64,000 nucleotides of DNA from Lobosporangium transversale (taxonomy: Eukaryota > Mortierellomycota > Mortierellomycetes > Mortierellales > Mortierellaceae): the NCBI RefSeq assembly GCF_002105155.1, contig NW_019028984.1, positions 248,001 through 312,000 of the forward strand, given 5' to 3'. A model generated the notes under the pieces. It worked only from the letters and a program-made list of their open reading frames with translations, had not been told where the DNA came from and ran no database searches. This document shows, one piece after another, positions 22,118 through 49,632 of the stretch. Every line of letters begins with the position of its first letter. Positions within the stretch are counted from its first letter, which is position 1. A program made the translations under genes and the position numbers.

Positions 22118-24436
22118 CTAGGTGATCCGCACGTGTCCGATCAAGTTACCTCAGTTACTGAGAACCCCCTTGTCTGTTTACGCGCTGACGCGAACAGAAC
22201 TTTGACAGTATCACCGGCTAATCAAGCTGTTGAGCCACCAATTGGAATTAAGTGGATTCTAGATCAACAGAAGGAGCGGAAAAAGAGACGAGAAGCTGTT
22301 ATGAAAGAGGCGCGCAGAGCAACCAGAGAACATAATCTTAGGCGACAAAGAGCAAAGTTAGATGCCATAGTCAGAAGAGCAGAACGCCACCAGGACCGAG
22401 AGCGAAGGCATGGTGAACGCATGCGAGCCCGCGAAGAAGCGAGGAGACGCCGGACCCAGAACACAAGGAGATATGAGGGTCTGAGCGAGCAAGCTCTGCT
22501 AAGGAGAGCAAAAGTCGACCTGGATTCCAACGAGACACCGTGCCTAAAAGTGATCCCTGAAGTCAACAGAGGCCTAGCCAGGGACACAAATGGAGTTATC
22601 ATTAGTGCCAATACTGAGGAGAAAATCCAACGCCAAAGGGAACGGTACAATATCCAGCCGGGTAATGTCATTTATACGGATGGATCTCTCAAAGATATTG
22701 GCACTGAAAGAGTAAGTATGGCATTTGGTGTGGTAGTCCAGACACAAGAGGGTGAGTTTTACACTGCGCTATCTGGTAGAGTAGCAGGCAACGCATCCTC
22801 GACAAAGGCAGAGCTAGCTGGTTTGTTGGCAGGAATACTTATCAGCCCACGAAACAGACCTATGACAATCCGACTTGATAACAGCGCAGTTGTGACTCAA
22901 TTCCGAGCATTGGTCCGAGGCAGAGTGGATAGCACTTTGCGACAACGTATTAGATCACCGTATGCAGTATGGTGGGCAGCTATACACAACGCATTTATTC
23001 AACAAGGATCGGAAGTCACGGTCGAGTGGGTCAAAGGACATGTCGGCAACAGAGGGAACGAAGAAGCGGACGAAGCAGCAAAACATGGACATTATGGCGA
23101 GCTATGGGATATCAACATAACGGAGCATAATGACATGTACTGCCATGCAAAGTTCAACGGTGTACCAGCGGAAGATGACTTAAGGCAGATCCTTAAGTTA
23201 CAGTCAACAACTCGTACACATCACACGTGGATCGCTCAGAACAGGACGCAGGAGCATGTTAAGGATTGGACAAAAATTGATTGGCGAGCTACTATGAACA
23301 TTGTTCATGATAGCAACCTACCGAAAGGACTCTTCACCAGCCCAGCGGACTGCCAAAAGCGAGCGCACAGGATCAAGAAACTCCATGGAATGTTGCCTAC
23401 ACAGTCATATATGAGACACTGGAGGCCAGACCTTTATGAAGACGGCAACTGCAGAGTGTGTGGGACAGAGGATGAAGATACATCGCACATCTGGAGATGT
23501 CCAAGGACGATGGAGACTCAGGCCGAGAAGTGGAAGGAGATAATCCAAAATGTGAATGTGATAGGGGAGAGGACATGGAGGAAAGAGTTGAAAGCAGTGC
23601 AGGAGCAAGCACAAAGGGCCAGAGAGAGAGGTGTAGACCCACCAAGGACAAAAGAGCCAACTTTTACTGCGGCAGAGGAGGACTACATTTGGGGGACTCT
23701 GGAGATGCATATCGATGGTGTGCGAGAAGTACGACGCCATGGTGATAGGAGCGGCGATGATGAGGAAGAGAGAGAGCACACACCAGATTGGTCTGTGCAG
23801 GACATTTACCACGGAATTACGCCCAAGTCCATTGCTCAGAGTTGGAAAGTTGGCTTCAAGACAACAACAAGGATAGCTACATATATGGCAGGGCGCTTCG
23901 TCAAGGCCATAGAGGAATTCGGTCGTACAGAAATCTGGAACAAACGGTGTAAAGTCACCGTTGAATGGGAAAAGGCTCGTGGAATCACTGCTATAAGCAA
24001 ACGCGCTAGAGGATGCAACTGTGTTGGGGAGCACAGACGCAGTAGCAATGATTTCCTTGTCCCCTCCCTCAGACAAAGACAGAAGCTGAATGTAAAAGAG
24101 ATCTACAAGATCGCGGATGACCGAGTCCGGGACAGTTACCTTGGGAAAACCAAACTGGACGTGATGGAGCGGCTAGGTGGAATGAAGTTTTTGATGACTA
24201 TGGATAGCGGATAATTTGTCGTGTTGCGCAACAGGCCACGTCGGAAAGGTGGACTTTGAGTACCAACCACGGCGGTCAGGGTTTATGAAATCATGGATAC
24301 AGCGGCTCTTGTCGTTTGTGCAGTAATAGCTGTTTATTGACTATAGTTTCTGGAGCATTTTGTTCATAGAGTGTAGAAAATAAATCCCATGACCCTGAGG
24401 GTCCTTGTTATTAAAAAAAAAAAAAAAAAAAAAAAA
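22118..24436 (+). mobile_element. 5'-truncated LINE with intact RNase H ORF and poly(A) tail
   Basis: An open frame runs from just after a stop at 22115 to 24214 (699 codons). There is no authentic ATG at the start, so this is the C-terminal part of a longer ORF2 whose reverse transcriptase is missing. After a basic coiled-coil-like stretch (Arg/Glu-rich, residues ~50-125) comes an RNase HI domain with all four acidic residues in place: YTDGS, KAELAG, RLDNSA and NEEADEAA, plus WVKGHVGNRG. A zf-RVT-type knuckle CRVCGTEDEDTSHIWRC follows. The 3' UTR (24215-24414) ends in a small palindrome, GACCCTGAGGGTC, then CTTGTTATT and an A22 tail. The 5' edge lies 47 bp from tRNA-Ser. Confidence 0.85.
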
Positions 24437-33000: not shown

Positions 33001-36000
33001 GATTCTCCGGATCTAATCACAATAGTGCTGATAATAGCATTAGCAGTAATGGAAGCAATGGGAAAAATAGCGGTGGCACTAACAACAATATTTCACATGA
33101 AGATCGTGCGTTTGTGCTCGAATCAGTGTTGGCTTTAGCGCATATCTCCAATTTGCAGGAATTGCTCCGCGCGATTTCTCACGCGTTAGATAATTTATTG
33201 GTGGGTCATCCACCAGAAGAAATGGCAATTATCCTATGGCAGAAAGATGAGCATCTTCCCAATGGCGGAGCCTGGGCAATCGTGGAAGATAAGTATCAAG
33301 TGGGGGCAACACAACCCACATTGATTTGGACAGATCTTTCGGAGCGACGGGATCATATGCCAGTACTATTACGTAAAGCTTTAGATACTCAGGAGCCTAT
33401 TTTCTCAACTGCTCTGGGGAGTCGGTCTCAATTACCAACAATTGCCTGTGTACCCATTATTGCGGTGCAAACAGGGATCTCAACACTCTTGGGGGCAATC
33501 TATCTTCATCACCTGCATCCTCGGTTTTATTTCAAGAAGCGTGAACAGGACATGCTGGTTCTATTCTGTCAAAGGCTTGCGACACCATTATTGCATTGCG
33601 AAAAGGTGTCGGGACTGGAGAAGCTACTATCTCATGCAACACAGAGAAATCGCGTCCTGGAGGATACATTTGCCAGGATCCAGAAGGTACCATCTATTAC
33701 CATTTCTGCTTTATATCCTTTGCCAACCTTGTTAGACTTTAACTAATCAAAGGATACCTTAATCCTCTAACAATGTTCTAGAATGAACATGAGGTCTTCT
33801 CGTGGATGGAAGCACTACCATGCTTTGTTTGGGCGGCTGAGAGGGATGATAGTACGAAAGCGAAAGCAGAAACAAAACAAAAAAAAAAAAAAAAAAAAAA
33901 AAAACGCGATGGCTTTCTTGACCTTTCCTGTATAACCCTCGTATCTCAATTAATCTAGCTTTTCTTCCTATTTGCTAAATTTTCATGATAGTTGTGAGCC
34001 GGCGTTACCTCTCCCGATCTTGGTTTGACTTTACTGGGCTTCCAGGAGATGCCCGTACAAGTGACCGATGGCTCAGTGCTATGCAGTATGTTTGAGACAA
34101 TACCACTGGATTTCACCAAATCACGTTAATAACTTCTGTGAATATTGGTTATTGATACGTTCTGGCCTTAATACTTCAAATAGTCCTGATGATGTCGCCT
34201 CATTCCAAAAGGAGGTATCGCAGAGCTACAAAACGGGTGTGTACAAAGATTGCGAGTTTAGATTGATGCGTTATGATGGCGTCTATCGTTGGCACCTTTC
34301 CCGTGCTGTCCCCGTGTTGAACCACAGCGGAGTCATCCTGAAGTGGATCGGAGTCACTATTGATATTGGTGAGTATATTAAACTTACATGTATATTTAAA
34401 AAGAAGCGAAAACGAAGGTATCTAACATAGTATTGTATACATAGATGACTTGTACCTGGCACAAAAGGCTGAGTTACACAAGAAATCAAATTTCCTTGCC
34501 AACATGAGCCATGAGCTACGAACGTAAGCTTCATACAGATAGCGCCCATACAGTTGTATCATATGAATCATTTTATGCGGATAGATTGACATGTCAGCTT
34601 TCTTTTTATATTATTATTATTACATTTTTTTCATCTCTCCTACAACATCCTTCCAGTCCGTTCTCAGGGTTCCATGGGATGTTGAGTCTATTAGGGTACT
34701 CCAACCTGGACGAAGAACAACAAGAATGCGTATTTACTGCTAAAGCTAGCTGCGAGAAATTATTGCTCATTATTGATGATCTTTTGGATTTTTCCAAATT
34801 GGAAGCCGAAAAAGTTACTCTGGAAGCTTCACCTTTTGACTTGCAGGACGTGTTTGATGAAGTTGAAGACATTGTAGAATCGTTAGCGGCACAAAAGTCA
34901 TTGGAACTTGCATTTATTAAGGCTGACAATGTTCCAGAGGTTCTAGTTGGGGACTGCAATCGACTCAAGCAGATTCTGCTAAACCTAGTAGGCAATGCCA
35001 TCAAATTCACGCACGCAGGTCACGTCATTGTACGATGTGAAGTCTATGATCGGGATGCAGAGATGGCCGCAGTGACTGAGAATGGTACAGCCACTTTGGC
35101 AGAAGAGATCGAAAACGACAAGTTCTACTTTATGCATGGAAAAAGCAATGGAAGGCAGGACCCATCTGATTCACGCCCACCAAACTCCGGCCGCTTTTCA
35201 TCGCCAGAACCGTTGAGCGAGACATCAATCAAACTTGTATTCACAGTTGAAGACACTGGCATCGGAATTAGCGCAGAGGAGCAAAAGATGTTGTTCTCTC
35301 CATTCTCTCAGGTGGACGGAAGCGCCACGAGGCCGTACGGGGGATCTGGTCTGGGCCTTTCTATCTGCCGCCAGTTGGTGAAGCTGATGAAGGGCCGTAT
35401 TGATCTCTTTTCCACCCCAGGAAAGGGCTCCACATTCTGGTTCATGATCCAGTGTGAGCCATGTGCACCACCGGAAAGCCCGATGAAACCTGTTCCGGAA
35501 GTAGAGCTTGGCGATTCTACAAAAGAGATCAAACGTATCACACGAACTCTAGGAACGCCCCGTATTTTGATTGCTTCCACTAGTCAGATGACTGTCAGCA
35601 CCTTACAGTCTTATCTTTCAGACTTTAATACAGAGGTTGCTAATACACCATCCGCTGCAGCCAGTCGTCTTGAGGAGTCTGTTACGAATGGAATTCGGTT
35701 CGACTTTGTGTGCTGGGACTTCCCAAAATATGATCCAGAATACACAATGATGCTTGAGCTGCAAGCTAGACCCAACCTCAACAATGTACATTTTGTTCTC
35801 TTATATACACCCAATACAGATTTCGTCCGACGTGCTCATTCACTCCAGCTACCGCATTCATCTTCTAACAGTTCATTAGCTGTTGGAAGGAAGAGGCCTG
35901 CACTGAGTCAGTCAGTCTCATTGCGGGTTGAGAACAGTGGCTCAAACTTGGCATATAATAACTATTCGGGCTCGACACTTGCCTCCACCTGCGAAGTCCC

Positions 36001-38953
36001 CGGCCTGAGCCCAGAGAAGCTTAACAGTCTACGTATCACTTGCATCTCCAAGCCAATCCGGCGACTCAAGCTCCTACGCGCTTTTGTAGAAGTCCTTGAC
36101 GACTCTACGCGAATCCACGGTGCACAAACAGTAAAAAAAACCGCTAGTGCTGGTGGGGGGAGCGTCACATCGGGTGCTACACCCTCGAGTCCTATTATAA
36201 CAACGACCCCAGCTCCAAATATGGCATCGGCGCCTGTGTCTTCGCCCACAATCTCTGCCCCTGTTCCTCCAGTTGCTTTGCCCTCGACTATGATTCGTAG
36301 TCCTTCAGCGCCTATGGTCTCAACTCTAGAAGAGGCTCTTGGTATTCAAATGCCTCAACCGATTACGCCAGCTATCATCACCATTGAAGAGGCCCCTGTC
36401 AGGCCGGACCTTCCTAATGTCGACAGTGGTACTCATTTCCTGAGTATGGCCCAGGAGCAAAAGACAATCAGTCAAAGTCTTGCAGAGATAACAGATTTGT
36501 TCACTCAGTCTACTCCAGATAATGATGCGACGAAAGTACTATTAGAGGAGTTAATTTCGCCCGAAGAGAAGACGTCCGAGGGAAAGACATCTGGTGAGAA
36601 GGAACCTGATGAGAAGGCGCTCGAGGAGATGAAGAATGATGTACAAAAAAACGACAAAGAGCATGGCGAAGAAATGGTAATTACAACAGTCATAGAGAAG
36701 GAAACTTTACCTGAACTATTGCCACCCGCTCCTAATGACATGGAGATGAGAGAACCAGCTGATACTAAGGAAGCTAATAATGAAGCTGAAACTGAGGCTA
36801 GTCCAGAACTAGAGGCCAAAATGAATCAAGGGGATGAAATAGAACTCACGAAAGAACAAGGACAATCTAGTGGCAAGGACAAAGAAGATGACGCCGAAAT
36901 AGAAGAAGAGACGGTGAAGGAGAAGGAGAAAGAGAAAGAAAAGGAAAAGCCAGTAACCAAAGCAAAAGCTTCGCTGAAACAAAAGATGGCTGCAACAGCG
37001 AATGGGAAAAGCAGCAAACTTCGTTCTAACTCACCCAAACCTGCGAAGACATCCAAGTTAGTGACCGAGGAAGCGACCGAGATCTCATTATCGCTGGAGG
37101 AAGCTAACAGGATTGCAGGCATGCGTATTCTTTTAGCTGAAGACAATTTGATTGCACAAAAGGTTCTATCAAAGCAGTTAGCTCTTTTTGGACTTGTGAT
37201 TTCATGCGCGAACGATGGTGCGGATGCCTTGAACCTGTTTAAATCTCATCCGCGAGGATACTATACTCTGGGCTTCTTTGATCACCACATGCCTAACTGT
37301 GATGGTGTACAAGCAACGCAACAGATCCGAGCACTTGAAAGAGAACACGCTGCTGAAGTCAAAGGGCCAGTTCCACGGTTGCCTCTTGTAGCAGTTTCGG
37401 CAGACATCCAGGAAACAGCACGCAAAGCATGCCTCAACTCCGGTATGGAACGCTATGTTACCAAGCCACTGATGCAAAAGGACTTGGTAGCAATGGTCCG
37501 TCATTATTGTGTGATTGGTGATGCTGAGGCGAGCACCCTTGCATATGTCCCCCCACCTGAGGAAGCACTACCACAGAACCACCCCATTGTTGGAGTTCCC
37601 AGTACCACAGCTGTAACCTCGACAGTTGAGGCCATGGTCTCGGCAGGCCATGTTTCGGCGCCAATAGGAATCACCAACGCTGTTGGTCTCACTCCTCCTC
37701 CATTGCCTCTCGCTGTCACATCGACACCCACAGGGACATCCATCCTTGCTAATGCTAGCGTTGCAGCTGTTGTTGAAAAGGCACCAGCTCCAAAACTAAC
37801 TGCACATCCCAAGCGTGAGCCGGAGCTATCGCCTGCCGCATTACGTGGACTAGCATTGATTCGCGAAAATACTTTGCAGGACGAAAGCTCCAAAGTTGGA
37901 GGCGGAGGGAATATCAAGTCCACGAATATTATGATGGCAACTGTACCCTCTTCGGCAGCATCTGTGTCATCTCCAATATCCACACCAATAGTTCCCGCAA
38001 CATCATTAGCGACAACAGGTGTTTTCACCGGCTTGTCGGGGACACAACCTATGCAACATAGCAGTAGCCATCATGGATTCGGTAAAAATCACAGTAACAG
38101 TGAAGCTGGCGTTAATGGACATTTGAATACATATGGAGGACACGTGCTTTGCAAAGCTAGTTCTTCGTCATCTCTATCAGCTAGCTACCAGGCTGCTGCT
38201 GCTGCTGCCGCTGCAGCAGCAGCAGCGACTGGAGGAGGACTAGTGTCAGCACCGATGATGTTGGTTACATCTCCGAACTCAACTGGACCAACTATCACGC
38301 CATCTCCATTAGCATCGGCTGCAGCTATACCGACACCTGGATTGGCGGCACTGCCACCGCTACCACCAATAACAGCAACAGGTTTAGGGTCCACGTCGAT
38401 GTCGGTCTCCACGAACGGACTGAACATGAACGCGACGATGGCTGCAGCCTTGTCAGGAATCCAGCCGATTACAGCCATAGCGGCCAATGCGGCAGCAACA
38501 TCGGCAGTTGTTCACACTGGCGGTTCTGCCATCCACGATCACATTATTCATTCGACACCGTCGACTTTTGTAACTACAGCTGCTACTGGGTCAGCAAGTG
38601 CCGGGATTAGAACTTCTACTGTTGCTAGTGCTCCAGTTCCAGCTGCAACTGTAGTAGGAGCTAGTGAAGTAATGAATGGTGCGCCGTGGCCGACTGTAGT
38701 GAATGGCACTCTACTAGACCCACATACCCAACTCATATGGCAACAGCAACAGCAACAACAACAGCAACAACAGCAACAACACCACCAAGCTGTTATGCAG
38801 CAGATTCAGCAGATTCAGCAAATCCAACAGATTCAACAGATCCAACAGATCCAGCAAATCCAGCAAATTCAGCAGATTCAGCAGATTCAGCAACTGCAAC
38901 AACAACAGCAACAGCAACACCAGATACAGCAACATCAACAGCAACAACAACAA

Positions 38954-39002
<49 letters not shown>

Positions 39003-39589
39003 TACTGTCATCTCTATCAGCACAACCAATGCAGCTACCGGTGCAGGTTTCAGTGCAAGTCCCCGTAGCACAGGCACCAGTTCCATTGCCAGTCCAAGTC
39101 CCTGTTCAAGTGCCAGCCCAAGTGCATGGATTGACGCCAGCGAACTTGGATCAATGTCAGCAGCAGCAGCAGATCCACTCTCCAAAGGAGGTTTTCGCTC
39201 CTTACTTGCACCCATGTGAGCCTTCACCGACGACAGAGCCAGACCATAATCCGATGTCAATGAATGGTACTGGAAATGAGAGTGGAGCTGAAGTTGGGGC
39301 TGGAATTATCCCAGTGACTACTGCTAATCTGAGTATAGTCCATGGTATCGCGAATAGTGTTGTAACCGCTTCTGGCGCTGGCCCTGCTATCATTACGCCA
39401 GTGCCGGCTTCTGCGTCTGCAGCAGATGTTGTTGCCAAGGCACAAGCAGCGGCGGCGGCGGCGGCGGCGGCCTCAGTAACCACAGCTTCTACTTCAGCCA
39501 CTGTAGCTAATATGGCGACAACAACAACCACTAATATCTCAGGATCACCTTCCCCTGTATTCCCTGTGAAGCTGAACCATTGGATGTAA
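30088..39589 (+). CDS. Hybrid histidine kinase with N-terminal pseudokinase, GAF, PAS and receiver
   Basis: Ten exons: 30088-31512, 31836-31893, 32091-32278, 32410-32511, 32826-33686, 33782-33851, 33992-34085, 34184-34368, 34445-34523 and 34657-39589, giving 2664 residues with all phases consistent. Order: Gln-rich N terminus. Ser/Thr-kinase-like domain (~190-580) with HGQ at 217-219 where HRD is expected, a long Ser-rich insert, then DIYSLGVMFYYLW. GAF (~680-853). PAS (~890-1000). HisKA with MSHELRTP (His1017). HATPase (NAIKFTH, EDTGIGIS, GGSGLGLSI). Glu/Lys-rich linker. Receiver (~1840-1965) with AEDN, FFDHHMP (Asp1896) and VTKP (Lys1957). A ~700-residue Ala/Thr/Gln-rich tail with QQIQQI repeats follows. 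The layout recalls fungal group X kinases (Chk1/Mak2/Mak3), which sense stress and feed Ypd1-type phosphorelays, but the central AAA-like domain of that group is absent. The protein-kinase region is probably non-catalytic. Confidence 0.93.
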
Positions 39590-41620
39590 AAACAAAAATC
39601 CATGTATATATATACGTGTATACAATTATAGTGGCCATTTACAACAGAGTGCACCTTCATCTTTTGTATGTAAATTATATCCCAATAAAAAATAATGAGG
39701 AGGGAAAAACTTCGTCCGTCACAAGGGCAAATTTGCCATTATAAATGGGCTAAAAATCCAGCAATCCATGGGCATTGTCTTGAAATTTTATTTCGATGTC
39801 GAAATAAATGACCGAAAACTAAATTGTCATGGAGCTATCCTGGCTTCTTTATTTGTGCAAATAAAAAAACTCTTGAAGACTTTCTCATGACCCTAGCATC
39901 CGCTTGGGAGTCCATTGTATCGTTTATTTATTGACAGGTGTAATATAGCAGTGATAATATTCGCCGCCGTAGTCTCGACTTGAAAGGAGGGCAATCTGAG
40001 TTGATTCATTCTACCGCACCATGGAGCTTGACTAACTTGATCTTTTCCTGTACAGCCCGGCAAGACTTGATTTGTCACATCGTTTGCTTGCTCGTCTTCT
40101 TGCGTTCCCTTGATGTATCTGGGTTGGTAAGCACTGCTAATAGAGTTTGTTGGGCCTGTTGAAACCAGAGGGAGCCACAGCAACATATCATACCCAAGGT
40201 GATACAAATATCTCTGTTGGAGTGAGTGGTGAACTGTATGTGGTTCAGATGTAGTGGACATAAACGGCGAAAGAATGCATCGAAAGGATGTGAGCGGTTA
40301 TGAGAGCAAGGAAGAAGGGGTTGGTAAGCCTGTTCAAGTCCTTGGCAAGAGAGCATGAGCAGCAGTTGTGATCAATGGTATAGTTTCTAGACCCTATCTT
40401 CCACGTACAGCATTGCATTACTGTTGTTTTCAGACCTGGCACCAATCATGCGAGGTATTTCTTTTTCTGAGGGTTCCTTGTGTTAAATGGCCAGACAGAA
40501 AGCTTAGAAGAGATACAGACACAACGGTGAAAAAAATGTATGTGGGCAAACAGTTGCTGTGTTTATTTGTTGTCTGCCTTCTTTCATCGCGGGCTTTTTT
40601 TTTTATTGTTTCGCAAATCTTGTTTCCTTTTTTGTTCGTCAATCACTGTGTGCACGAATAAGCAGCTGAAGCATCTCTTTGGTTTCTGTACATGTATAAA
40701 CACATTTTACATCGTGGCGTCTTTTTTTGTTCAAAATACAAGCGTTTTCCATTGGTGCCTCCAAACAAACTTTATTTTGGTGGCCACTCCACAATCATTC
40801 CATGGTTATAACAATCCCTAGGAAAGGATCAAACGCGTCGGTATCAATCTCGCTTCTGTATTTCTAGATGCATATGTTTTGGCAATTGGTATCAACTATC
40901 AAATTCACACATACACACACCAAACGACCGCCAAAAACCACCACTCTCGCTTCTGCTCTCCCTCCATCCACAAGGCGCTGCGCAATATCACCATTAACAA
41001 GGCACCGTCCAGTAAGAAAGGGTGCTTAGATAGCTTTTACTCCAAGCAATAAGCGCATGCAACTACATCACTCCTATCTCCGCCATTGATGCCGGAATCT
41101 GAGAGTCAACGAATATCTCTGTTTTAACGCAATAGTACTGGGGCTGTTGGAGCAAAGAGCATCATATGAAGCCATTCTCTGATAAAAAAGACTTTTTTTT
41201 CTTTAGTTGTTACCTTTGACAAGGATATAATCACCGAGTCATATCTGTCAATGCATTTATTACCCCTGTTCAAAATTATAAATCTTCTTTTATTCATTAA
41301 ATTCCTCACAAAGCACAAAGCAAGGGCCAGTGCAAACAAAAGAAACTGAAAAAAAAAATTGTGTAAAAAAGATCGACATCGACACTGTATGCTGTATATG
41401 GAGATGATTTTTTCGAATGCTCACTTTGGTATCTCAATACTATTGTTTCCAATCCGGCGCTCATGCGAGAGCTTGTATTTATTTGTCAATCTCTGCTATT
41501 GACTTGGACAAAACCCCAAGCCAAACAAAGGAACTGAATAAAGATTGATGTGGCCTGTGAAGCAAAGGATCGATATCAAAACCATATGAGACAATGTTAA
41601 AATTCATCATCAATCCAGGA
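39590..41620. other. Intergenic, no gene recognised
   Basis: About 2 kb with only short frames and no family motif, tRNA or clear repeat. It is the left flank of the Fanzor-like locus. I searched by eye for inverted repeats shared with 45358-45540 and found none convincing. Confidence 0.5.
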
Positions 41621-41628
41621 TATAAAAA
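41621..41628 (+). promoter_or_regulatory. TATA-box-like element upstream of the FEN/Fanzor-like gene
   Basis: TATAAAAA, 225 bp before the ATG at 41846, followed by a long C/T-rich leader. The ATG context is GACCATGG. This looks like an ordinary host-type promoter. Confidence 0.35.
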
Positions 41629-41845
41629 GGGATCATTGTCTTCCTCCTTCAAAGTCCCATCCCTTTTACCACTGCCACTTGTTCCTGTATCTTTCCCTCA
41701 ATATTCTTTATTTATTCACTTTGGATCTTTAAACCATAAAAAAGCTCATCCTTTTATACCTTTGTCGCTCTTTTTTTTTCTTTTTCATTTCTTTTCATCA
41801 CCACCATTTTTCCTTTTTTCTTTCTCTTTCGCTTAGATATTGACC

Positions 41846-42942
41846 ATGGGGCTGAAGTCCTTCTTCAAACTGGTTGCGGATCGCGGGGTTTTACCTTCGG
41901 AAACTGACGTGGGCACTTTCTTGGCGGCAAATCCTGACTATTCTGTTCATGTAGATCTCCTCAATACGTTCTATTACGACATCCTCCGCAGAGTCGTCCA
42001 TGCAAAGATGAAAAACGAATCCATCATTGATGTAGGAAGGTCCCTGGCTCTCGTGATAAAGGATCTTTTCATAACGGACAATCTGACTATACATATTGAT
42101 GGGGAACCTTGTACTGAGAAAGAAAAAGCAAGGACAGAACGGCAAGCCATAAGAGAAAAAAATATGGATGCTTTGGAGAACGATATGAGCACCTTCGAGA
42201 GAAATTCTCGGAGTGGGTATGGACTCGTCCTCAAGTCATGAGGCGCATCCAAAAGGGTCTTCGAGAAGTCCACACCCTGAGCGTCCAGGACAGGGATCAG
42301 CTGGCAAGAGGCCTTAGCTCTGTCTTCGATGTCTGTCTGTGTGCATATGAAGCGGACCCATGCATAGGGTGCCATGATGAGGAGAATGATAGGATCGTGA
42401 TATCCCAAGACTCTGATTTTTTTGCGTACGAACGAGTCTGCTTCCTAGTGCGACCCCTTCCGCACCGTAGACGGAAGTTTGGGGTTTACGACGTAGACAA
42501 CGTTATCCAAGCACTAAGACTGCCATCACACGCGCATCTGGTGTTATTCTGTGCCATCGCAGGCAATGACTACTCAAGGAACCTCGAGACGTTAGGCCCG
42601 GTTAATAATCTTCGATTAATTCGAAAGGTTGCGTGGAACGAGAACTACAATAAAATGCTTCGGAACTACCTAAGGGAAGCTAGCAAGGTGTTGGGAAGGA
42701 ACGCAGCCTCTGAAGAAGGCCGTTTTAGAGTAGCTCTCCGCATTTTTACTTCCGGCCATCAAACATCGGCCCAAGCGTTACCATTGAACAATGAGTTCGA
42801 TAACTTCAAGCAGCGTCTACTCAATGGAAAGGATCTCGCCATAGAGTGGCTCAGCAAAGGCGAGCGCAGCGCCGCAGAACGTAAGAAAGCTCAAGCTATA
42901 GTTTTGGCCTTGAAACCATACGTCCCCAATACTAATCGTTAG
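41846..42942 (+). pseudogene. FEN/XPG-type nuclease region, N-terminal half of a larger gene, frame broken
   Basis: The frame opens at ATG 41846 (MGLKSFFKLVADRG, like the N terminus of FEN1/XPG nucleases) and continues to about 42160. There the coherent protein moves to another frame (RYEHLREKFSEWVWTRPQVM) and runs to 42942. Together the pieces carry the FEN catalytic acids: HVDLLNTFY, HIDGEPCTEKEKARTERQ, YEADPC, ISQDSDFF and AGNDYSRN (counterpart of FEN1 GCDY). The region is ~365 residues, the size of a FEN-type core. The frame change coincides with an A7 run (42156-42162), so it is a one-base indel, either real or an assembly error. Coding sense continues directly into the Fanzor-like half, so I treat the two as one gene. 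Known FEN/XPG proteins cut branched DNA; activity here is unproven. Confidence 0.7.
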
Positions 42943-45357
42943 TCCCTTTCTTGGAAAATGTAGAGGCGCACCATCATTCTATACAGCGGAAGGGTCACAT
43001 AGGAACCAGTTCCGGCCCATCTTTTCTGACAAGGCGAGCATATTGAATGGGCGCACAGTTGATATCAGTAACTACCGTCAGCACGATAGGCCGGGCCTTA
43101 AGCATCCACCACGTCGGAAAAAGACAAAAAAGAAGCAACAGAAAAAACAAAAGCGGAAGCACAAAGGCAAGAAGCCCCACAGGGCTAAAAAAGAAGGTGC
43201 ACCAATTAGGAACTTGAAGGATGCTACGAAGGTTGATCACAGCTACAGCAGTAAGCATCCTATCAAGGCCTTAACAATTGGGTCCCTTAAGGCCTCCATG
43301 GCAAGGAAAGGCGGACTGGACGCAGATGAAAGGGATAGTATTGCAAACCAGATCCGAGGGGCAGTTGTTGTCCTCAACCGACTACGCCGCTATGCATACT
43401 GGGTGATTGCCTTGGACATTGAGAGGATCATGCGGTTACCAGGGGCAGCAAGGTCGAGGAAAAAGGCACTGGACGAGGTCTTGGATAGCAATGACTATTC
43501 CTTCCGTCTCGCCACCCTTCTTTTAAGTGGTCAAGGTGGCCCCAATTCAGCTTACGCGAGGGCAAAAAAACAAGGAAAGACGGTAGAAACGCCCCATTAC
43601 CTCCTCGCTTATGAACATTTCAAGGCCACCACTGAACTTTCCCCAATAAAGGAAATAGACATCACATTGGGGGACGTGCAAGGCTTTGATCCCAAAAAGA
43701 TCTCATTTCCAAGAGCGTCAGAGCTACTAATGGGCCAAGTACAGACATCATTAAGGCAGCACTACAGGAACGCAATGGTATAGCTTGTGTAGGGTATTTT
43801 CATGTATATTCTGCAATCAAATGCTCTTTATTCAGACTCTTTTTTTTTTTTTTTTCTTTTTTTCTAGTTTGATGTCGAGAAAACAAACGAAGATATGAGC
43901 GACATTGAGTTTATTTTGCGGGAGAACAAAAAAGTGAAAAATACTCAGACTTTCCTACGTCCCCCTGGTCACCCGGGTATGTGTATCTGTCTGAACACGC
44001 CCTAGTTGACATCCTCTGGGCGAACGAAGATACCAAGCAGCTGCTGGAGCGTATTCTGCCTCTCAACAATCCTTCCAAGACTGCAATGTTTGAGTGTGTA
44101 CAGGGAACAAAAGGGGTTTTGATACAGGCTCTCTTTTGTGACATTGGAAGTGATCGCATGGTTCTTGGATATCGAGACAAAGTATCCTTGCTGTCACAGG
44201 ACAAAGATCTAACTCGGTTCAAACTCAAAGGAACGATTTCTACCAACGGTCTAGTTCTGAATCTACTTGCCTATGACACAACCCAGACGAAGAGACAGCA
44301 GCAGTCTGACGTAGATGAAGAAGACTCCAGGCAAGAACTGGAGCTTTCTCAGGGATTCCTCAACACGACGTGTTCAAAGGCAGCCGGTGAAGACCTGACA
44401 GATGAAGACTATGCAAACATAAACTGGAAGAGGAGCTCCAAACTGCTCGAAAACGTTGAGCTCACATTCAACAAACCAGGGCGGTGCCCATCCGCAAACA
44501 CCACAACTATCGTCGGATGCGATCCTAGTATTGTTAACGCCCTTACGTTTTCCTCCCTGGATCCTCACAACCCTAACTTGCGGCAAACGGTAAAGGTGAG
44601 AAGCAGGTTCTTGTACCTCCCCGCCCTCCGCTTCAATCACCTGTTGAACAAAAGGAAGCGTGAAAAAGGAATGATTGAGGTTGAGAGCGCCATCCCTGTG
44701 TTTGGAAGGGATACGTACAATGAGTACTTTCAATGGATGAACGAGGAGCCCCAGACACAAATAGGATCAAAGAATTTGGATGTGCTTCAAGAATTCTACG
44801 AGTCCAGGTGGCACCTGAAAAAAAATGGGACCTACGAAAGGCTCAACGAGCTACGTTCGACTACGCGGTACAGCGAGTGTTGAAGATACTCGGGGGAAAA
44901 GGAGTGCTTGTCGTCGGCCTAGGGTCCTTTGAAAGTAGTAAAAGAGTTCCCAGCAAGCACACTGCTATAACGAGACACCTTATCACACAGGTATGACTTT
45001 TTTTAAAAAAAAAAAAAAAATAAATAAGAAAAGCTGGAAAGCCATAGAACCCTTGCTAATAAACGACTGACCATTTGAAACGCTTAGATCAAAGCACGAG
45101 GACACTTCGCTGTAGGAGCGCACGAATTTTACACCAGCGCCCGCTGTCCCCGACCCCTCTGCGATAGCTTTTTAGAGACGGTGTACCCTCGCTCTAAATA
45201 TTGCCGGACATGTAAGGTATTCTTCGACCGTGACGCAGTAGGGGCGGAAAACATCGCAAGAATCGGTCTTGCTCAAATTGAGAGGCAAGAGAGGCCTGCA
45301 AAGTACAAGCCCACGGAAGAGCCGCCTGCTCCGGCTGCGAAGCGCGCACGACGCTAG
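42943..45357 (+). pseudogene. Fanzor/TnpB-like RuvC nuclease region, C-terminal half of the same gene, frame broken
   Basis: Coding sense resumes as SPFLGKCRGAPSFYTAEGSH, then a very basic linker (PPRRKKTKKKQQKKQKRKHK) likely serving as a nuclear signal. Introns are 43778-43867 and 44991-45087. RuvC-I is IVGCDPSIVNALTF. The RuvC-II region reads VLVVGLGSFESS, lacking Glu at the usual spot, with a candidate replacement Glu in AHEFYTSARCP. A zinc ribbon follows (CPRPLC ... YCRTC), then RuvC-III FFDRDAVGAENIARI. This is the C-terminal architecture of TnpB/Fanzor RNA-guided nucleases. The frame changes near 42930-42950 (one base extra), near 43930-43960 (beside an A6 run) and at 44818-44825 (A8 run); all other segments are open. 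No obvious transposon ends flank it. The short indels imply recent loss or sequence errors. Confidence 0.75.
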
Positions 45358-45542
45358 ACACAAGTATTTGGGTGCCGGCACACCCACAAAAAATTTGTAA
45401 GTTCTGTTTATTTTCGTCTCCTGTGATCCTCTCTAATCTTTTGCCACTAACCTTAAAAACCGTACAGATCAACAGATATTTACGTATGTACTTGAACTCC
45501 TTAAGCTTCTACAAGAACCTGTAAACAAGCCAGGCATACAAA

Positions 45543-46643: not shown

Positions 46644-48177
46644 GAATAAACGAATAAAATACCCTTGATGCTATTATGCACCTTTTTCCCTTTAATAAAA
46701 TAGAATCCTTTGTGGCCTTTGAGTCCGATTTTAAAGTTAAAAATATGAAATGTGCCGACAACTTTGTACATGTATATAAATTAAATTTTCTTAAAACCAG
46801 TTTGTGAAACTCATCCAGTAAAATTTAGATAACTTTTTATATATATCTTATATATCTTAGTTCATGGGATACAGAGTTCAGGGTCAAATTGTTTTCGCAA
46901 GTGCTGTGCTTGTAAACCCATGGAGAGGATCACTGCTTTTCAAGCAATTCCTATATATATATATATATACATGTATATATAGATACAATACGAGACTGTA
47001 TTTCAAAACAGGTAGCTAATCCAGTCTAGTTGTTCAGTGGACCAGTCGTTCAGCGGAATAACAATGATGAATCCTTAGTTGCCTAAATTTTTCGTCCTCT
47101 TTCTTCCTTGGGAGGTGGTTTTTTCCCCTCCGCCTCACTTCTTAGTATATAATCCATAGATTTTATAAATATATAAATATATATATATATATCGCCAATT
47201 TTATTTGGTCACGATACCTTATATTTTTAATCTAAAAACGATGATTGAATTGTTCTGGTGGCATCTCACTACGTGACGGACTTGCAACAATACTCGTAAC
47301 AAGCGAGCTAATTGGCTGCCAATACACTCGAAAGTATTCAAAAAATATAAGGTATCGCGACCAAATGAAACGGGCTATATATACATATCACCTTCAGTTT
47401 AAACTCTGTAGGACTATCCGGAAAAAATGTTGTAAAGACAGTACCCCAATCTCCCACAAACTTTAAAAAACATCTCACAGATGGATGATTGATAGCAAAT
47501 ATATATATATATATATACATTCATAATATTGAAGTATCTAATACAATGATGGATATATACATCCATGCCTTTACGGGGGATTAAGTCTACATAGCAGACT
47601 AACCTTAGAAAAGATGAGGCATACGGGACACGGAACTTGTAAACCGAGTTGACGCCCTTTCAAGACGCTGAATCGCTTGTCCTGAACACTATTCACCTTT
47701 TGTTGGAAATTGCCAGGATGTGTACATGTATACTGTTTGCCCAAGTCATGTGTGACATCTATGACCAGTCGCATATGGAGCTTATATGAGGAAAAGAAGA
47801 GAACATCTATTGTACAATTGTATATACAACACCAAGGACTCCTGCAGACAAAATGTAGGCGATGTCATCGCGCTTTGCTTTTTAGGGGGAAGTGGTTTTG
47901 CTTTTGCTTTGTTTGTAAATCGGCCGATCTGCGAAATAGACTATGGGTCCTAATAAATATTTATGTCAAGGTACAAAGACTAAAAAGCATCTAAGAAAGA
48001 TGTGATGATGGTCGATGAGAGCTGATGACTGTAAGCTTTCTTTCTCCTGTGCTTCCATTGATTTAAGAACAATGAATATTGCTGAATGACTTTCAGTCTT
48101 CATTACTTCTCTTTGCCCCTTTTGCTGCAAAATTAAGGTCAATGATGGCTTGTCTACAGTACGTGGGCATACGTATA
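46643..48177. other. AT-rich intergenic DNA, no gene recognised
   Basis: Contains (TA)n stretches near 46950-46975, 47160-47190 and 47500-47515, and the inverted repeat listed separately. Short frames have no motif. Confidence 0.5.
47198..47370. repeat. Short inverted repeat with ~28-bp arms
   Basis: TTTGGTCACGATACCTTATA near 47204 reappears as its complement near 47346-47366 (TATAAGGTATCGCGACCAAA) with one mismatch in the core. The loop is ~115 bp and the flanks are TA-rich. It could be a small hairpin element. Confidence 0.6.
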
Positions 48178-48179
48178 TA

Positions 48180-48435
48180 CAGTGGAATCTCGATAATTGT
48201 ACACTTTTGTACAAATTTCAAATTTGATATATTTCTAGGCCATTGGTTGGCTAAGAGCCTTACTCTTTTAAAAAAAAGTATTCTAAAAAACCCACACTCA
48301 ACTGGAGTAGAGGAATCAGCAGAGGATTTTTAGAATAGTTTTTCATGAATTGTGGGCTTCTTAGCCAATCAATAACCGAGAAATATAGCAAATTCGAAAA
48401 TTGTACAAAAGTGTACAATTATCGAGATTCCACTG
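48180..48435 (+). mobile_element. 256-bp TA-flanked MITE (pogo/Tc1-mariner type), copy 1
   Basis: Begins CAGTGGAATCTCGATAATTG and ends with its complement. The terminal inverted repeats extend imperfectly for ~75 bp. A TA dinucleotide flanks each side (48178-48179 and 48436-48437), the target duplication of Tc1/mariner/pogo elements. There is no coding capacity. Termini of the CAGT...CTCGAT type resemble pogo/Tigger families, so an autonomous relative is expected elsewhere in the genome. Confidence 0.9.
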
Positions 48436-48883
48436 TATATTATACAAACCATGAGTGCCATTTATGGTTGTATAAAAAATTACATATCTTTATTCATTCC
48501 TAGTTTGTCAACATGTCGATCATTCTTTTTTTTTTTTTTTTTTTTCCAAGCTGAGCCCACTTACAGTAAATAATTGTATATATATATATATTGTTTAATA
48601 TTTGTTTTTTCTGGTCACGAACATATTTTAAAATCATAAATGTAATGATAGAATTAGCTTAGCGGTCCCACAAAATGGTAACCAATGTCCTTTTTTGATA
48701 GATCCTAGACTTTTTTATTGAACAGAAACAGCAATCAGAACAAGGCTTGACTACAAGGAATGCTGGACTTCATGTAAATTCAGCATCATTTCAGAGTGGT
48801 GCACTTTTTCTAGAGTCAATTTAATTAATATAACGATAGAATACATATTAAGTTCTTACTAAATGACGGGGACAAACCCTGTA
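48436..48883. other. Spacer between the two MITE copies
   Basis: AT-rich, with a T20 run at 48526-48545 and a (TA) run near 48578-48590. No gene seen. Confidence 0.5.
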
Positions 48884-49139
48884 CAGTGGAATCTCGATAA
48901 TTGTACACTTTTGTACAATTTTCGAATTTGCTATATTTCTCGGTTATTGATTGGCTAAGAAGCCCACAATTCATGAAAAACTATTCTAAAAATCCTCTGC
49001 TGATTCCTCTACTCCAGTTGAGTGTGGGTTTTTTAGAATACTTTTTTTTAAAAGAGTAAGGCTCTTAGCCAACCAATGGCCTAGAAATATATCAAATTTG
49101 AAATTTGTACAAAAGTGTACAATTATCGAGATTCCACTG
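48884..49139 (-). mobile_element. 256-bp TA-flanked MITE, copy 2 (inverted)
   Basis: This is the reverse complement of the copy at 48180-48435, same length and nearly or fully identical, again bounded by TA (48882-48883 and 49140-49141). The two copies lie 448 bp apart in opposite orientation, so this DNA could form a large cruciform or hairpin. Confidence 0.9.
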
Positions 49140-49632
49140 TATAATAATACTTCTTTATTTAATATCATTTGGCTTGGTTTTCAGGGGTCTTCTCACTTTC
49201 AACTACGCTTCAGCTGCTCTTCAATTGTCGTGATTCTGATTTGCTGACTTCAACCTTATGCTTTCGAAGCTTCGTTGTACTCAGCAAGGGAACACATGTG
49301 TCACTAAAAATTAATCTTACACTGTGCCTGAAAAGAGATTGTCTTTAAGATGCAAATATATATATACAAATAAGAAACCAGGGTATGTGAAGCAATGGTA
49401 TACGCATCGTTTTTTCTCTTCCCAATGGGATGCCCGTGTATGGACATGTATTTATATACATATTTTATATATAATACCATGTATCCTCGTATTCGTCGGG
49501 GAATCAAGCATTGCAGGTCGTAATGGGTGGAATGCATGTCGGGGATCCATTTAACGTTACATTCATTCACATTGTAAATGTTAATTTTTTTCTCGGAAAA
49601 TAAGTTTGAGCCAGTATGCATTCAATCTAGAC
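49140..49632. other. Upstream region of the FAD monooxygenase gene
   Basis: AT-rich, with TA-rich segments near 49355-49370 and 49450-49475. No gene seen. Confidence 0.4.

Follow-up and report, generated by a model that had tools for sequence, protein, structure and literature searches.

A transposon-borne gene of Lobosporangium transversale that very probably joins a FEN/XPG-like nuclease to a Fanzor/TnpB-type nuclease

Background

The described systems closest to the gene treated here are the Fanzor proteins carried by transposons. The published Fanzor/TnpB motif runs D-X(125,275)-[TS][TS]XX-C4-X(5,50)-RD (PMC3627910), and the normal length of a Fanzor1 protein is 600-700 amino acids (aa) (PMC11423790). 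The omega-RNA of SpuFz1 lies between the stop codon and the right repeat; its target motif is CATA, and a CA is conserved in front of the left repeat of its ghost elements (PMC10432273). In PGv-1, a GIY-YIG endonuclease is reported as a separate protein beside one Fanzor (PMC3627910), and an editor based on EXO1 and Cas9 raises homology-directed repair (PMC11107001). Here we analyze 64,000 nucleotides of the fungus Lobosporangium transversale (contig NW_019028984.1, positions 248,001 to 312,000; "the window", in whose own numbering all window positions are given), in which positions 41846-45357 hold one copy of a gene carried by a transposable element. Comparison of its copies indicates that the gene very probably encodes a single protein in which a FEN-type nuclease is fused to a Fanzor-type nuclease.

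Within a literature search that had supplements and subscription papers outside its scope, no match was found for an XPG or PIN domain alongside a Fanzor, and the matches listed for Fanzor together with FEN1 or flap were, by title, reviews (one of them on cargo integration) or tool papers. A FEN-type domain goes unmentioned in the available text of four Fanzor accounts (PMC3627910, PMC10711439, PMC10432273, PMC11423790).

Results

One predicted protein with two nucleases

An earlier note on this DNA, made from its letters alone, had described a FEN-like core running in continuous coding sense into a RuvC block. Its motifs are all found in the stated places and order on the plus strand: an ATG at 41846 with MGLKSFFKLVADRG, then HVDLL, HIDG, YEADP, SQDSD and GNDY, and 3' of GNDY a Lys/Arg-rich stretch, CDP (RuvC-I), EVES (RuvC-II), a four-Cys ribbon and FDRD (RuvC-III). 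The coding sense, however, is not continuous in this copy, where the motifs are spread over several frames, split by three predicted introns within the coding region and by several breaks of frame (exons 1 and 3); the window copy looks like a decayed pseudogene. Likewise, the span given in the note, 41846-45357, does cover the gene, but the enclosing element is larger, at about 39710-45478. The FEN-RuvC arrangement is not a matter of chance, because dozens of copies recur in the genome. The window copy is laid out as follows.

39710..45478, plus strand: family-1 transposable element, its left tip altered in the window copy; copies end together there
near 39710 and near 45478, plus strand: typical family-1 ends shared by copies, left (T/C)TATCCCTT..., right ...CAACAGATA
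41846..42880, plus strand: exon 1, FEN/XPG-like nuclease domain by profile to FEN1/RAD2/XPG/EXO1 structures; frame broken here
42881..42963, plus strand: predicted intron 1, phase 2, GTAAGA...ATGTAG; place and phase the same in family 2
42964..43777, plus strand: exon 2, linker rich in Lys/Arg, with the first part of the Fanzor half, by sequence
43778..43867, plus strand: predicted intron 2, phase 0, from splice signals and family comparison
43868..44990, plus strand: exon 3, putative WED/REC region (by position only), with RuvC-I CDP and RuvC-II EVES by motif; frame broken
44991..45087, plus strand: predicted intron 3, phase 0, by sequence
45088..45357, plus strand: exon 4, four-Cys zinc ribbon (TNB; PF07282 over cut-off) and RuvC-III (RD)
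45358..45478, plus strand: candidate omega-RNA region from the stop to the right end, by its fold and a position analogous to SpuFz1; hairpin at 45370-45385
45397..45467, plus strand: predicted intron of the 3' untranslated region (3'UTR), GTAAGT...TACAG, by sequence; ends 11 nt before the right end

The joined reading frame is best seen in a second family of elements (family 2), which shares 31% identity with family 1 in the FEN exon and 36-39% in the RuvC exon (exon 3). In the family-2 element L048, the FEN, Lys-rich, RuvC and zinc-ribbon exons join without a stop into 1,209 residues across three in-frame GT-AG introns. This continuous frame is present in one of the three family-2 copies read (exon 3 of L047 contains a stop, and part of exon 2 is deleted in L049), and after the RuvC-III motif it departs from L047 and L049, its last ~45 residues not being the usual tail. 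The intron phases are identical in the two families, at phase 2 for intron 1 and phase 0 for introns 2 and 3. Two family-2 copies have no Met in the first 149 residues of the frame beyond intron 1, and four family-1 copies none in the first 111-155; in-frame stops lie upstream of the exon-2 start in four family-1 copies. Because the start of exon 2 (RPxF...QHDRP) is conserved and yet has no in-frame Met after intron 1, it can be read only from the FEN exon. The L048 frame, the conserved phases, the Met-free exon-2 start and the recurring order of the domains together support the earlier proposal of a single protein, and make the fusion very probable.

The proposal that the FEN part might stand in for the usual N-terminal part of a Fanzor is not favoured: between the FEN exon and the RuvC-III motif lie ~800 residues, including the basic linker, a remainder no shorter than a normal Fanzor1 (600-700 aa; PMC11423790). 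Retention of intron 1 in L047-L049 gives an immediate stop, and a free 341-aa FEN protein could arise from the same gene.

Identity of the two halves

Both halves were compared with profile hidden Markov models, as the earlier note had suggested. A profile of nine FEN sequences gave 28 matches in PDB at E ≤ 0.1, all of them FEN1, RAD2, XPG/ERCC5 or EXO1 (best E 2.4e-7), in an alignment that includes the DGEP region, the DxD and the DY region. The window FEN piece by itself finds Rad2 in PDB with phmmer (E 6e-4); against Pfam XPG_I it reaches E 0.022, which is below cut-off, although eight of the nine FEN sequences match this model at E ≤ 1 (best 3.4e-4). The acidic blocks (D; DG; E-A-E/D; D-x-D; D before Y) are present in the window, in family 1 and in family 2, where they are FELD 33, HIDG 83, NEAD 170, SGDSD 188 and DNDY 241; which of their residues are catalytic is taken from the FEN family in general. 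A single-sequence AlphaFold2 model of window positions 42118-42939, made with no alignment, had a mean predicted local distance difference test (pLDDT) score of 38, an uninformative result that was left out of any fold search. Judged on these comparisons, the N-terminal part is FEN1/XPG/EXO1-like. Elsewhere in the genome, locus L074 (C117:643640) has an open reading frame (ORF) over the XPG_I cut-off without a TNB match within 5 kb.

In the C-terminal half, the zinc-ribbon exon gives database matches. The last exon of the window copy matches Pfam Cas12f1-like_TNB (PF07282) with 27.9 bits against a cut-off of 26.3 (E 2.7e-6), family 2 does so with 30.4 bits, also over cut-off, and all ten exon-4 sequences match at E ≤ 1 (best 3.2e-12). 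The NCBIfam model guided_TnpB matches eight of the ten (best 5.5e-9). An exon-4 profile finds the TnpB-like protein L79 in PDB at E 1.9e-7, followed by LaTranC and Cas-phi at 0.004-0.013, and in PHROGs the zinc ribbon matches a transposase (E 9.5e-5), while the FEN and RuvC exons have no convincing match there. The published Fanzor/TnpB motif is present in family-2 copies C51 and C84, with spacings of 223 and 207 and a C4-RD gap of 5. The profile comparison supports a TnpB-type assignment for the zinc-ribbon exon (TNB and the TnpB-like L79); the profile of exon 3 alone found no nuclease among its PDB matches to E 1. Taken as a whole, the C-terminal part is, by its sequence, of Fanzor/TnpB type, an assignment that stops above the level of Fanzor1 versus Fanzor2.

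Copies, families and recurrence of the pairing

Copies were searched for in the whole genome (42.7 Mb, 127 contigs). There the window FEN piece has at least 156 matches, the RuvC piece has 145, and for the last exon 40 places were scored out of 62 candidates, the window itself being counted. Family-1 copies share a left end near window position 39710 and a right end near 45478, beyond which the flanks differ; with these common ends and dozens of dispersed copies, the gene is carried by a transposable element. Over locally aligned parts, 26 other copies are 93-97% identical to the window copy. Exon 1 is open for 349 codons in other family-1 copies, and the other copies read have broken exons as well besides some open ones. 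The family-2 elements (L047, L048, L049) are ~6.1 kb long and mostly 97-99% identical, with one pair at 93.6-94.6% in 3' blocks, and all three copies read have an open 341-aa FEN exon. Upstream, the family-2 elements carry an antisense piece (L049:1039-1667) whose main block is 86% identical to the family-1 RuvC exon (window 44610-43925), and beside it an inverted bit of their own 3'UTR.

The order of FEN followed by RuvC/TNB is identical in at least four diverged lineages. Families 3 (L079, L080) and 4 (L083) have MGIEGLW/MGVHGLY starts, DSD and NDY blocks and the ribbon, and all are decayed; a RuvC-I motif (GLDLG/GMDPGE) is visible in L079 and L083, and family 3 has a clear basic linker, family 4 a weaker one. 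Of the 82 TNB places, at least 44 are preceded on their own strand, within 5 kb, by a FEN match, versus a chance expectation of ~0.35, while two have one downstream and one has it on the other strand, FEN places being counted among the matches listed. This count used 82 TNB rows and, from the 156 FEN matches listed, 73 places, one per locus with overlapping fragments dropped. A family-3 query adds C55, C69, C85 and C49, pairs that were read by eye, bringing the figure to at least 48 of 82. The idea that TNB places without a FEN match are Fanzors lacking FEN was checked at four loci: L081 and L082 look 5'-truncated, L084 has a FEN remnant, and L086 (C53:481000-486200) is a rearranged family-2 derivative from which FEN, linker and RuvC-I are gone. 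Further places of this kind may resemble L086. Searches for distant relatives, using the FEN alignment against viral and prokaryote contigs and the RuvC alignment against viral contigs, yielded no stretch that tblastn confirmed.

Between the family-1 subgroups A and B, the ratio of nonsynonymous to synonymous change (dN/dS, here as point estimates) is 0.39-0.49 for the FEN exon (4 pairs) and 0.26-0.30 for the RuvC exon (3 pairs). For the linker exon the values, estimated from one to three synonymous changes, lie between 0.66 and 4.6, and the family-2 pairs have few changes. Selection seems to have maintained both nucleases, and recent decay has come on top. Extra selection on the 3' RNA, considered in view of the high identity of the last exon, was dropped as an idea, the identity profile along the element having no clear excess.

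A candidate guide RNA at the 3' end

In family 1, the 121 nt from the stop to the right end contain a GGGTGCCGGCACACCC hairpin, then AAAAAATTT, then an intron-like stretch GTAAGT...CTAAC...TACAG. Family-2 right ends likewise have a hairpin, AAAAAATT, and GTAAGT...CTAAT...TAG at a like place in seven of eight, L047 being without the donor. The donor of the 3'UTR intron is present in all 34 family-1 loci checked, copies that are near-identical. By analogy with SpuFz1, the 121-nt region is a candidate source of an omega-RNA; that a guide RNA might be matured by splicing is speculation from the sequence.

Element ends and a left-flank signature

TA stands at both ends of the element. For family 1, a TA duplication would be the preferred reading over Helitron-type ends or insertion without duplication. 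The left end of family 2, a putative mariner-type terminus, has 44 bp at 91% identity to both ends of a 7-kb element, L085, and ORFs of L085 match DDE_3 (E 2.4e-4) and Tc3-type helix-turn-helix models, below cut-off. At the right end of family 2 only a short stretch is shared, and the family-1 ends are different. No long ORF for a transposase was found in three family-2 elements, and six side ORFs have no Pfam match (E ≤ 0.01). Two kinds of short repeat lie downstream of the element in the window. At 47167-47386 is a palindrome-ended element with ends like the family-2 left terminus and many near-identical genome copies; at 48174-48440 and 48919-49143 is another palindromic repeat, its second copy inverted 0.5 kb on, with many copies that are 97-100% identical.

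The base before the left TA differs between subfamilies. Among left ends of family-2 type, 14 of 16 have G there, versus 12 of 42 ends of elements whose terminus is nearly identical but belongs to the other type (Fisher P 7e-5), these being the 58 zero-mismatch rows among the 100 of 116 matches listed. The 14 left flanks that were read omit C53:485017 and C59:3413 (both not G) and C96 (G), and 14/16 is the fair figure; A stands at position -2 in 10 of those 14. A third terminus variant (TCACGAT), counted by eye among the matches listed, has G before TA in 6 of 15. Family 1A has T before TA in all 10 readable left ends, and in family 1B C precedes TA in 6 of 7, A occupying -2 in all 7 (20 family-1 left ends were fetched, L052 and L053 being unreadable and L061 and L062 sharing one flank). 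On the right, the first flanking base varies, both in family 2 (T 5, C 2, A 1; n = 8) and in family 1 (A 11, G 7, C 4, T 2 in 24 distinct flanks, from 27 rows with two unreadable and one flank present twice). A base that is specific to the subfamily and confined to the left is as a Fanzor target motif would predict. From these flank bases and the SpuFz1 precedent of CA and CATA, we take AGTA, NTTA and ACTA as candidate target motifs; at the level of sequence the flanks support a Fanzor that may use a short motif ending in TA on the left, the alternative being a fixed base of the element.

Neighbouring genes in the window

Other genes in the window are LTV1, TANGO2 and a hybrid histidine kinase. 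The histidine kinase ORF, with a response regulator and long Gln runs, occupies 34508-39586 and ends ~120 bp before the element. An RNase H ORF at 22118-24211 is probably part of a non-LTR (long terminal repeat) retrotransposon.

Discussion

The explanation that best covers the whole is, in our judgement, a TA-ended element with one FEN-Fanzor gene, in which guided cutting is followed by FEN processing that favours copying the element back; we hold it tentatively, at somewhat under an even chance. A guide RNA from the 3' end of the element would read the right flank, and the RuvC half would cut a copy of the site that has lost or never had the element. The FEN half would then remove 5' ends or flaps at the break, and such trimming would steer repair toward copying the element back from the element-bearing chromosome. 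A more specific and doubtful form of this proposal is a homing-like system in which an RNA-guided nuclease has a built-in 5' resection or flap nuclease, splicing of the 3'UTR joins a hairpin scaffold to the guide, and the target motif shifts with the subfamily.

Several results weigh against parts of this account. The two FEN sequences with printed scores fall below the XPG_I cut-off, guided_TnpB scores are far below cut-off where shown (21 vs 100 bits), and no protein named Fanzor is among the 42 PDB matches of exon 4 at E ≤ 10. A profile of exons 3 and 4 has no PDB match to E 0.1, so the RuvC-I/II part rests on motif order. The family-4 copy L083 has KSD in place of the EAD block, and 34 of 82 TNB places are without a FEN match among the matches listed. 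Within family-1 subgroups, dN/dS is 0.34-0.42 for FEN and up to 1.13 for RuvC, with one RuvC pair at 0 synonymous versus 6 other changes, and the values for exon 4 lie anywhere between 0 and 1.07; all our dN/dS values are point estimates without a significance test. As to the flank signature, the left-flank base could belong to the element and be fixed, and the control ends, which include both ends of some elements, are not all independent.

Among the rival explanations, the one that fares best keeps the same fusion and gives its FEN half another task, the trimming of the displaced DNA strand of an R-loop or the maturation of the guide RNA, instead of resecting the break. FEN-family enzymes cut branched 5' structures, which counts in its favour, as do the hairpin and the predicted intron within the putative guide-RNA region; SpuFz1, on the other hand, cuts, and no such domain is described for it in the available text (PMC10432273), and we consider this alternative unlikely.

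Another possibility is that the FEN half serves transposition by processing flaps or gaps left when a transposase acting in trans excises or inserts the element. The family-2 elements, with no recognised transposase and a terminus in common with a DDE_3-type element, would suit such a role. L085, however, aligns with L049 (blastn) at the terminus only and has no FEN-like ORF among ORFs of at least 140 aa, and its mobility seems independent of FEN; we consider the idea improbable.

That the gene is now inactive in this genome, all copies being relics whose conservation was inherited from a past active stage, is decidedly improbable in our view. The broken window copy, the broken exons in other family-1 copies, the decay of families 3 and 4 and the stop or deletion in two of three family-2 copies speak for it, but the family-2 copies are mostly 97-99% identical, their FEN frames are open in three of three and the whole frame is open in one. 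Two separate adjacent genes in one element, to which the stop upon intron 1 retention and a free 341-aa FEN protein in family 2 would lend some colour, are very improbable given an exon-2 start without in-frame Met for 111-155 residues in six copies, the in-frame stops upstream of it in four family-1 copies, and an intron phase conserved across ~31% identity.

If the preferred account of a FEN-Fanzor fusion with guided cutting and copy-back is true, the protein would be a natural equivalent of the engineered Cas9-exonuclease fusions, a nuclease guided by RNA that also controls the repair of its own break. It would offer a testable answer to why transposons carry Fanzors, namely that the element is copied back into the site that was cut, and possibly a ready-made editor favouring homology-directed repair; through the subfamily-specific base by the insertion site, genome sequence by itself would be enough to read off target motifs.

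Set beside FEN1, RAD2-XPG and EXO1, the N-terminal half has the same MG start and the acidic blocks D, DG, EAD, DSD and DY in the same order, with D replacing the second E of the FEN-family EAEA block; unlike them, its ~340-aa domain heads a transposon protein, and single sequences of it scored below the Pfam cut-off. With Fanzor1 in transposase-less mariner elements of the PUl-4 type (Bao & Jurka 2013, PMC3627910) it shares the Fanzor/TnpB C-terminal motif, TA at the element ends and a terminus in common with an element bearing a transposase (a putative one here, at the family-2 left end), whereas those proteins have a highly variable N-terminal half and, in the available text, no mention of a FEN/XPG domain. 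Like SpuFz1 of Spizellomyces punctatus (PMC10432273), it has RuvC motifs and a four-Cys ribbon; there the guide RNA occupies the stretch from stop to right repeat and the motif is CATA, and here there is a candidate 3' region with AGTA, NTTA or ACTA by subfamily, while a fused flap nuclease is not mentioned for SpuFz1 in the available text. A parallel in design is the engineered Cas9-EXO1 editor (PMC11107001, PMC9450370), which likewise pairs an RNA-guided nuclease with a 5' exonuclease, EXO1 being in the FEN superfamily; that fusion is man-made and uses Cas9 (PMC11107001), whereas the one described here would use a Fanzor.

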